Assembly: GCF_900120125.1 (NCBI RefSeq)
Contig: NZ_LT635546.1
Span: 361,228 to 425,227 of the forward strand
Reading direction: 5' to 3'
DNA: 64,000 nucleotides
Source: Gemella massiliensis
GTDB taxonomy: Bacteria; Bacillota; Bacilli; Staphylococcales; Gemellaceae
The number at the start of each line of letters is the position of its first letter. Position 1 is the first letter of the stretch. Positions 30,421 through 31,911 of the stretch are shown piece by piece. Both the position numbers and the translations under genes were made by a program. Below the pieces are notes generated by a model. That model saw nothing but the letters and a program-made list of their open reading frames with translations, was not told the origin of the DNA and ran no database searches.

Positions 30421-30476
30421 AAATTTCCGTTATAATAGACATTTTTAAAAATGTCCGTTAAAATGGAAATTTTTTA
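30421..30476 (+). terminator. Two-tier hairpin terminator after ruvB
   Basis: An outer 8-bp stem (AAATTTCC at 30421-30428 with GGAAATTT at 30465-30472) and an inner stem (GACATTTTT with AAAAATGTC), separated by an internal loop, then T residues. The -10 of the next gene follows within 20 bases. Confidence 0.65.
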
Positions 30477-30514: not shown

Positions 30515-31174
30515 TTGTATATAGCAATAATAGGAGATATTATAGCATCAAAGAAAATAATAGATAGGGATACTGCTCAAAAAAAATTATATACTTTATT
30601 AGATAAAATTAATATTAAATATAAAGAACAATTATATTCTCCATTTACAATAACGGCAGGTGATGAATTTCAAGCCTTATTTATACCTAATACTTATATA
30701 TTTCAGATAATAGATGAGATTTCATTGGCTTTTATGCCGTATGAAATACGATTCGGTATCGGTGTAGGAACAATGTTAACCAAAATTGACAGAACCATAA
30801 GTATAGGTTCAGATGGACCGGCTTATTGGCGAGCACGTAAAGCAATTAATTTTATACATTCTAATAATGATTATGGAATGAACAGAATAGCTGTTTCCAT
30901 AGAGAACAAAGCTACGGAAGAAGTAATTAACACTATACTTTCTGCTTGTGCTTTTATTCAATCAAAGTGGATAAAAACACAGCGAATAATCTTAAAACAA
31001 CTAATTATTGAAAATAATTACAGTGAATATTTTTCAAATAAAAATTTAGCTAAATCATTGGAACTAACACCAAGTGCATTTAATAAAAGATTGAAAGCAA
31101 GTGGTATAAAAATTTATCTACGTAATAAAAATATTGCAATGAATATGTTACTTAATGAAACGAGGGAGGAATAG
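30515..31174 (+). CDS. SatD-family protein with C-terminal helix-turn-helix
   Basis: The 219 residues match the SatD family, named from the Streptococcus mutans acid-tolerance locus; its biochemistry is not established. The N-terminal 115 residues contain GDIIASK (7-13), TAGDEFQALF (47-56), RFGIGVG (79-85) and GPAYWRARKA (101-110). Their order and spacing recall the GGDEF/class III cyclase fold; this is my reading, not known family annotation. The C-terminus has a helix-turn-helix (about 172-197, NKNLAKSLELTPSAFNKRLK). Start: a GTG at 30506 is inside the Shine-Dalgarno AAGAGGTGG; TTG 30515 is preferred. The DUF3307 gene follows after 5 bases, a pairing I recall from other Firmicutes. Confidence 0.85.
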   Translation: MYIAIIGDIIASKKIIDRDTAQKKLYTLLDKINIKYKEQLYSPFTITAGDEFQALFIPNTYIFQIIDEISLAFMPYEIRFGIGVGTMLTKIDRTISIGSDGPAYWRARKAINFIHSNNDYGMNRIAVSIENKATEEVINTILSACAFIQSKWIKTQRIILKQLIIENNYSEYFSNKNLAKSLELTPSAFNKRLKASGIKIYLRNKNIAMNMLLNETREE

Positions 31175-31179
31175 TAAAC

Positions 31180-31911
31180 ATGAATATTTTTTTCTTAGGT
31201 ATATCAAATATGTTATTATATAACCCTATAGTATTAATTACATTATTAGTACATATATTATCGGATTTTCAGTTTCAAAGTGAAAAAATATCATCGCTAA
31301 AAACAACTAAATTAACATATTTACTTAAGCATCTAATAATTGTAGGATTACCACTTATACTATTGGTTATTATTTTCCCGATAAATATAACGTATTTTTT
31401 ACTGGTATGGCTTAGTCATATAATAATAGATAGCATGAAATATAGTTTAAACACATACATTAGTAAAAATAAATTGGAACGCATAGCATTTGTAATTGAT
31501 CAAATATTTCATATATGTTGCATTGTGTGTTTATATTATTTAGTTGGTTTTAATGATGAAAAATTAAATTCAGTTGGCAATATTTTACGTCTTATACTGT
31601 TTTTTGCTATATTAGGAAAACCTATTAATATTGTTTTTAAAATACTATTCTCTAAATATCAAGTTGTAGAAAATAATTCAGGTACTATTGCGGGGGCGGG
31701 AGCAATAATCGGCGTCTTAGAACGATATATTATCGGAATATGTGTATTATTAGGTCAATATGCATCAATTGGATTAATATTTGCAGCAAAATCAGTGGCA
31801 CGTTATAATAAAATATCGGAAAACCAATCATTTGCTGAATATTATTTAATCGGTTCGCTATTTAGTATAATTTGCGTCTTGGTTACTCATATCGTTTTAT
31901 TTATGCTATAA
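31180..31911 (+). CDS. DUF3307 membrane protein
   Basis: Integral membrane protein of 243 residues with about six to seven hydrophobic helices. DUF3307 signatures are the polar motifs within membrane segments: LLVHILSDFQFQSEK (near residue 22), WLSHIIIDSMKY (near 85) and DQIFH (near 107). The paired His and Asp residues look like a metal site or catalytic cluster, but no activity is established. It is co-transcribed with the satD-like gene (GGGAGGAA about 9 bases before the ATG). A second in-frame ATG at 31213 is possible but less well supported. Confidence 0.85.
   Translation: MNIFFLGISNMLLYNPIVLITLLVHILSDFQFQSEKISSLKTTKLTYLLKHLIIVGLPLILLVIIFPINITYFLLVWLSHIIIDSMKYSLNTYISKNKLERIAFVIDQIFHICCIVCLYYLVGFNDEKLNSVGNILRLILFFAILGKPINIVFKILFSKYQVVENNSGTIAGAGAIIGVLERYIIGICVLLGQYASIGLIFAAKSVARYNKISENQSFAEYYLIGSLFSIICVLVTHIVLFML

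Follow-up and report, generated by a model that had tools for sequence, protein, structure and literature searches.

A SatD and membrane protein cassette of Gemella massiliensis with a predicted palm fold and a candidate operator array

SatD and DUF3307 are named Pfam families, yet they are uncharacterised, although records in which a 'SatD family protein' stands beside 'DUF3307' are already visible. In many streptococci SatD is annotated as 'unknown', and in Streptococcus pyogenes satD is an unexplained gene that is both essential and accessory. What does SatD do, and what is its relation to the membrane protein encoded next to it? The question is raised by the window analyzed here, a stretch of 64,000 nucleotides from Gemella massiliensis (contig NZ_LT635546.1, positions 361,228 to 425,227), in which the two genes are flanked by ruvB (named by eye) and queH (named by Pfam). 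A sequence-only reading of this DNA had proposed that a nucleotide-binding or nucleotide-making protein with a DNA-binding tail is paired with a membrane protein, and our analysis of the fold and the strict linkage of the genes found this to be largely right. The predicted enzyme fold, a partner domain with seven invariant residues and an operator make the question of SatD directly testable.

Results

The locus

The genome of G. massiliensis (1.80 Mb, 7 contigs) contains one SatD and one partner domain. The SatD of the window matched the Pfam family SatD (PF16264) with an E value of 3.9e-91 (304.8 bits, cut-off 29), and its partner matched DUF3307 (PF11750) with an E value of 7.3e-23 (81.4 bits, cut-off 23), the latter over residues 18–130 only. 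The membrane protein gene had been placed 5 bases downstream of satD, and the coordinates confirm this gap (31174 to 31180; Table 1).

Table 1. Coordinates of genes, domains and candidate operator sites in the window
Feature	Position	Strand	Description
satD	30515..31174	+	TTG start, AGAGGTGG before start; 219 aa, predicted palm fold and C-terminal HTH
SatD palm domain	30515..30907	+	Residues 1–131
SatD metal-site candidates	D8 30536–30538; G49-D50-E51 30659–30667	+	Predicted
SatD helix-turn-helix region	30974..31102	+	Residues ~154–196, from profiles and model
Membrane partner gene	31180..31911	+	243 aa, all-helical model
Partner DUF3307 domain	31231..31569	+	Residues 18–130; H51, H80, Q108 and H111 conserved
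Partner C-terminal membrane domain	31651..31905	+	Residues 158–242, common to all partners
Operator copy 1	30424..30441	.	TTTCCGTTATAATAGACA, palindrome TKTCYRTTATAAYRGAMA, 0 mismatches
Operator copy 2	30452..30469	.	TGTCCGTTAAAATGGAAA, 1 mismatch, 28 bp after copy 1

Linkage of satD and its partner

Among 348 genomes of the phylum, SatD (PF16264) was found in 58 and DUF3307 in 56. The two co-occurred in 47 genomes, compared with 9.3 expected, and all 47 co-occurring pairs adjoined on one strand with SatD first. A search with the C-terminal domain of the partner gave matches in 59 of the 348 genomes. After removal of the hits in G028 and G140 (E > 1e-4) and of the lower-scoring second hits in G064 and G075, 55 of 57 partner domains adjoined satD (51 downstream, 4 upstream), as did all 52 full-length partners; the alignments used were built from paired loci, and very divergent orphans could be missed in these counts. 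The two partner domains standing elsewhere, a 53-amino-acid frame and a stretch with a stop, were both from genomes without SatD. Seen from the other gene, 11 of 66 SatD places had no partner, some being fragments or at contig ends; this count leaves aside matches weaker than 8e-13, nearly all of them limited to the HTH (G241:C14 at 1.5e-11 included), and one further HTH-only match (G283:C1:2568002, 2.7e-13). The genome-wide linkage check had been set beforehand, and given its outcome we regard satD and its partner as almost certainly an obligate pair. In Streptococcus minor both genes are intact and about 17 kb apart, and SatD is therefore wanted in trans.

Beyond the pair we found no widely common neighbor, except for an ABC-type cluster (c2, 14 loci) and small sets in close relatives, and a housekeeping neighborhood was rejected. 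Two loci had unusual layouts: in one (L101, genome G217) the partner has a SatD on one side and an additional, partial SatD, in opposite orientation, on the other, and in another (L229, 1944–3470) the SatD frame is 508 amino acids long, possibly through an N-terminal extension or a fusion.

Predicted fold of SatD

The AlphaFold2 model of SatD, computed from an alignment of 55 sequences, had a pLDDT of 93.5 and a pTM of 0.90. Its chain consists of a strand (residues 2–9), a helix (18–35), two hairpin strands (40–47 and 51–56), a helix (62–72), a strand (78–85), a helix (102–116) and a strand (125–128), followed by helices to the end. The segments GDIIASK, TAGDEFQALF, RFGIGVG and GPAYWRARKA, which had been recognized in the sequence as following the order of nucleotide cyclase motifs, do fall on the matching palm elements of the model: D8 ends strand 1, A48-G49-D50-E51-F52 lies in the strand 2/3 hairpin, RFGIGVG is on strand 4 and GPAYWRARKA on the next helix. 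Columns D8, S12, G49, D50, E51, Q53, G81, G83, G85 and G101 were at least 90% conserved in the 55-row alignment, and the motifs are thus beyond chance. The positions of D8 and of G49-D50-E51 are the places of the metal ligands in the cyclase superfamily.

A structural comparison with GGDEF domains and class III cyclases, also set beforehand, found the palm fold with both Foldseek and VIA-align. Foldseek gave 13 matches at E ≤ 0.001, mostly to class III cyclases; after these come GGDEF domains, mCpol, Cya2 and Thg1, the mCpol structures 9mnr and 9pd0 having probabilities of 0.99–1.00 and E values of 0.004–0.012. In VIA-align the top match was GTP cyclohydrolase III (Z 13.9, rmsd 2.2 Å over 112 residues), followed by class III cyclases, Cmr2 and GGDEF domains with Z of about 10.6–11.5, and a Z of 8 was reached by 296 of 997 chains. 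With the model as its basis, a nucleotide-cyclase/palm fold for SatD is predicted with near certainty.

The likeness to GGDEF proteins that had been seen in the letters stood for the fold and failed for the sequence profiles. An hhalign alignment of the palm domain with 29 GGDEF domains (taken from 30 loci, as L296 yielded no frame) had a probability of 12% and the wrong register, and we rejected membership of SatD in that family. The window SatD had no match to PF00990 at E values up to 10, and the genome of the window contained no match to this GGDEF model at E ≤ 0.001. Searches with the single sequence found no solved relatives, and the SatD alignment had no credible match over the palm domain among solved structures. 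The mCpol family did not match the window SatD and was absent from the matches listed (25 of 80 families) for the 55 members; GGDEF_2 matched 3 of the 55, all weakly (best E 0.017). The kinship of SatD and GGDEF is at the level of the fold, not of a sequence family.

The candidate metal site is retained in paired SatDs. Among 132 of these, a set including five SatDs beside a broken partner and the S. minor SatD in trans, S12 and D50 were present in all 132 and D8 and E51 in 131 each, the row without D8 having its start missing. Among eight unpaired SatDs, D8 was kept in one and D50 in one. Seven of the eight are second copies from one family, in genomes that also have an intact pair, and the loss of the two aspartates may be a single event; the eighth has both aspartates and has lost E51. 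A locus with a remnant partner (L113) was left out of both groups. The second copies (L117, L118, L119 and L146–L149) have lost D8 and D50 and have no membrane partner, and those of L117–L119 have a gene of PHP type nearby (cluster c26, identified by eye). They are perhaps a repurposed DNA-binding protein.

The C-terminal helix-turn-helix and a candidate operator array

The C-terminal helix-turn-helix noted in the sequence-only reading was backed by two lines of evidence: residues ~155–197 had profile matches to known HTH proteins, a 'CAP REPEAT' chain being ranked first, and Sigma70_r4 models matched up to 19 of the 55 SatD members. The putative operator sites lie across the promoter of the pair. 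The right half of copy 1 is a −35-like TAGACA (30436–30441) and the center of copy 2 a −10-like TAAAAT (30459–30464); with a 17-base spacer between the two, the array straddles a promoter-like pair and overlaps the satD promoter. Copy 1 is the sole site without mismatches in the 1.8-Mb genome.

Upstream of satD, 79 regions were scanned: that of the window, those of two others of its genus and of 75 named loci, and that of S. minor. The palindrome TGTCYRTTATAAYRGACA occurred with up to three mismatches in 66 of them, compared with 2 of 1,580 mononucleotide shuffles; the pattern was derived from the upstream regions tested, and the remainder of the same loci is the better control. In that comparison, sites with up to two mismatches numbered 136 within 200 bases upstream of satD and 30 in the rest of 642,201 bases, and 25 of these 30 (counted by eye) again fell at satD, either in its promoter when a different start is chosen or next to a broken copy of the gene. 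Adjacent sites were spaced by 28 bp in 113 of 119 pairs (78 loci). In S. minor, satD has moved away from ffh and the operator has moved along with it. A search for a second target in the genome at up to two mismatches gave 17 matches per strand and 16 in the reversed control, none of which stands out.

In other lineages, inverted repeats were found in 17 of 57 upstream regions and in 4 of 55 control regions (p ≤ 0.05), which is at most suggestive. Two haloarchaeal satD promoters (L236 and L302) contain several inverted repeats of GTTCGG/CCGAAC, unlike the streptococcal operator and possibly a lineage-specific operator array. At a further locus (L063), the palindrome AAATCAAGGTTATAACCTTGATTT occurs twice upstream of satD in near copies with a spacing of ~29 bp, TTATAA being once more their center. 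The simplest reading of the window is that the HTH of SatD would bind the operator, while a different regulator is also conceivable; SatD probably autoregulates its operon.

The membrane partner

The model of the partner is all-helical (pLDDT 91.7). Conserved residues inside its helices had been singled out earlier, and part of this stood: the columns with at least 90% conservation across 50 rows include H51, H80, Q108 and H111. Conservation is strongest in residues 158–242, beyond the DUF3307 part, where G178, E181, R182, K204, R208, G225 and S229 (window numbering) are invariant in 121 of 121 partner rows. Five partners beside satD (L108–L112) have no Pfam DUF3307 match and keep the C-terminal domain, which no Pfam model matches in these five; the first half of the Arthrobacter partner differs. 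The plasmid partners of Agrobacterium and Sphingomonas, which stand beside satD and have at most 145 and 138 amino acids, hold little beyond the C-terminal domain. Because of these, the universal part of the partner is, as judged from the alignments, an unnamed C-terminal domain and not DUF3307. We infer that SatD acts on this domain and that the half which precedes it is an attachment that can be exchanged.

Matches to DUF3307 at places where Pfam detected no adjacent satD were mostly short (G245, G055, G126:C20, G210, G075:C108, G313, G085, G341:C109, G260, G336, G038 and G156), and the one in G245 proved to be paired with a SatD. Foldseek found no fold relatives of the partner at E ≤ 0.001. 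The best Z values in VIA, to the pore regions of TRPV2 and NavAb, were at most 5.0 and below noise, too low to suggest a pore, in a search whose absences prove nothing. BFVD yielded only short DUF3307 phage proteins, from Ralstonia phage RP12 and a Podoviridae, and a phiKZ Orf197-like one, all at E values of 1.2–9.0. No profile kinship was found between SatD and its partner. The all-helical model has no soluble nucleotide-binding domain, for which the 138 amino acids of the Sphingomonas partner leave little room. For the partner, the evidence is better matched by an effector under restraint than by the 'sensor or enzyme' suggested earlier.

Gain, loss and damage of the cassette

Of nine genomes of the genus, three have both genes and six have neither, with ruvB directly adjoining queH in all six; satD and its partner come and go as one unit. 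The window and one relative of its genus have RuvB proteins of 89% identity, compared with 59% for SatD and 44% for the partner. The SatD tree groups the window protein as sister with the Streptococcus anginosus one (100/96), which is also slightly nearer by identity (61% vs. 59% for that own-genus relative), and this suggests transfer of the cassette between genera. Plasmid-borne pairs were found in the archaea Haloplanus and Halorientalis and in Agrobacterium (four records), Sphingomonas and Arthrobacter. One on an Agrobacterium pAt plasmid (L238, 5499–8447) lies near an antitoxin, a nucleotidyltransferase-HEPN protein and a HipA gene. Neither gene had a match in 50,697 phage records, nor in IMG/VR, where the short search patterns limit the result. 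Nothing credible was found in the PADLOC defence library (best E 0.0094) or in NCBIfam (best E 0.042).

Damage was surveyed in the best 80 of 562 named relatives, ORF-end differences (L176, L213 and L233) and divergent first halves (L216 and L234) being treated as intact. satD sequence lay beside 78 of the 80 partners, the exceptions being a damaged locus of S. equinus (L194) and that of S. minor (L220), which has its intact SatD elsewhere. A broken partner with an intact SatD was seen at five loci (L156, L174, L182, L188 and L231) and a broken SatD with an intact partner at two (L212, a draft, and L222, a MAG). The cassette is present twice in S. equinus ATCC 9812 (L194 and L198), both copies damaged and ~13 kb from each other on one contig. 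The direction of damage is as expected for an antidote with a harmful partner; it is, however, only mildly lopsided, and five against two in draft genomes decides nothing.

Discussion

In S. pyogenes, according to a reanalysis of nine Tn-seq data sets, satD is the sole accessory gene of 609 in the top essentiality quarter; it is present in 178 of 249 genomes and absent from 29% (PMC11323703). Being essential where present and absent from so many genomes looks like the behavior of an antidote. If satD adjoins its partner in S. pyogenes and both are lost together, the partner is accessory too and so not essential. The locus tags of satD (SPy1171) and of UPF0122 (SPy1201), which we take to be YlxM, indicate that S. 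pyogenes satD may lie outside the ffh operon. In the main text of some Tn-seq studies we found no mention of sat genes. A non-polar satD mutant of S. mutans, from the work of Kremer in 2001, is reportedly viable, which counts against essentiality everywhere.

We propose that satD and its partner would form one autoregulated cassette. SatD, predicted with high confidence to combine a palm fold of the cyclase superfamily with a C-terminal HTH, would bind the tandem palindromes over its own promoter and repress the operon, a step well supported by the sequence. It would make a signal nucleotide from NTPs with a metal held by D8 and D50, and this nucleotide, or SatD itself, would keep the partner inactive via the invariant C-terminal domain. 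Were SatD or its product lost, for example because a phage brings a nucleotide sponge or a nuclease, the partner would act on the membrane and stop or kill the cell. This guard logic would be that of Panoptes (OptS/OptE), assembled from another palm protein and another, all-helical membrane protein, with the repressor built in; in Panoptes it is through its product that the palm enzyme serves as an antidote (PMC12657218 and PMC12657230). We give a probability of roughly 0.45 to the reading that SatD represses the operon, probably makes a nucleotide and restrains a harmful membrane effector, its enzymatic activity and the toxicity of the partner being the conjectural parts. For the single step of nucleotide synthesis by SatD, the chances appear somewhat better than even. 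The SatD fold, the catalytic residues, the linkage, the operator, the behavior as a cassette, the essentiality in S. pyogenes and the precedent of Panoptes support the antidote model. Against it we count that the partner has no OptE-like soluble nucleotide-binding domain and resembles no solved structure, that the damage is only mildly lopsided, that the aspartates were lost in a single family of unpaired SatDs, that an S. mutans mutant is reportedly viable and that the phage records contained neither gene.

SatD could instead be a nucleotide-sensing repressor without enzymatic activity, whose palm binds a ligand and a metal, whose HTH represses and whose essentiality comes only from the overexpression of a harmful partner. 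The HTH and the operator array agree with this, as do the weak matches to GGDEF_2, the ligand-sensing domain of PucR/CdaR-type regulators, and the Foldseek matches to Rv2242 and BAD_0249, which presumably hold a GGDEF_2-type domain and an HTH. Yet paired SatDs hardly ever vary at the two metal-site aspartates or in the GDE hairpin, a constancy beyond what ligand sensing usually demands, and degenerate sensing domains tend to drop metal-site residues; we consider a pure sensor unlikely.

A housekeeping stress operon, in which the target of SatD regulation is a membrane enzyme or a transporter required at low pH, would explain the name 'secretion and acid tolerance', which comes from the sat operon of S. 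mutans, and the conserved His/Asp of DUF3307, which suggest an intramembrane enzyme site. It becomes improbable in view of the patchy presence of SatD, the gain and loss of the pair as a unit, its carriage on plasmids and the partners that lack DUF3307. That a palm-fold synthase is always together with a membrane protein would also suit the activation logic of CBASS or type III CRISPR, in which a quiet SatD makes its nucleotide on infection or stress and switches the partner on. An activating synthase should, however, be dispensable in unstressed cells, in conflict with the essentiality of satD in the S. pyogenes Tn-seq data (PMC11323703), and we find this logic quite improbable.

Under the antidote reading, SatD and its partner may be a second, independent invention of inverse nucleotide signaling, with a self-repressing synthase whose constitutive product silences an all-helical killer; this stronger claim is tentative, and we would bet against it. 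If true, it would extend over streptococci, Clostridia, Fusobacteria, Alphaproteobacteria, Actinobacteria and haloarchaea, and the essentiality of satD in those S. pyogenes strains that carry it, though other strains lack it, would be accounted for. Inhibitory nucleotide signaling would then be far wider than Panoptes alone and would have been built more than once. In the open-access literature (PMC CC), which leaves most subscription journals outside its scope, we found no text treating SatD together with DUF3307 or GGDEF and nothing relevant on SatC/SatD/SatE; each of the two families was named by itself in one paper. For the cyclase fold, the strict linkage of the pair, the C-terminal partner domain, the operator array and the guard hypothesis we found no trace in the literature so searched, and they appear to be new here.

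Several known systems resemble parts of the cassette. The folds closest to SatD are GTP cyclohydrolase III and the class III nucleotidyl cyclases, from which it differs by its HTH and membrane partner, with no match seen at the level of a sequence family. With GGDEF diguanylate cyclases SatD has in common the palm fold, the order of elements and the AGDEF hairpin; it differs in that the first Gly is usually replaced and the profiles do not align. PucR/CdaR-type regulators (GGDEF_2 and HTH) likewise combine a palm-like domain and an HTH in one protein, whereas SatD keeps the metal site, has a fixed membrane partner and only in a few members resembles GGDEF_2. Type II toxin–antitoxin systems, too, have two overlapping or abutting genes, an upstream gene with an HTH, an operator at the promoter and a gene that is essential yet accessory, and the partner gene is not kept without satD, as the adjacency of all full-length partners indicates; in contrast, the presumed antidote SatD has an enzyme fold and may sit at another locus, as in S. 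minor. Panoptes (OptS mCpol and OptE 2TM-beta) is likewise a two-gene operon of a palm-fold protein and a membrane protein, and the antidote-like essentiality of satD fits it. The two acidic metal-site residues, D8 and D50 in SatD, compare with Asp6 and Asp57 of KpOptS (PMC12657218). SatD differs from Panoptes in that no profile match to mCpol was seen, that its all-helical partner contains neither a beta-barrel nor a CARF or SAVED domain, and that SatD has an HTH and an operator array.
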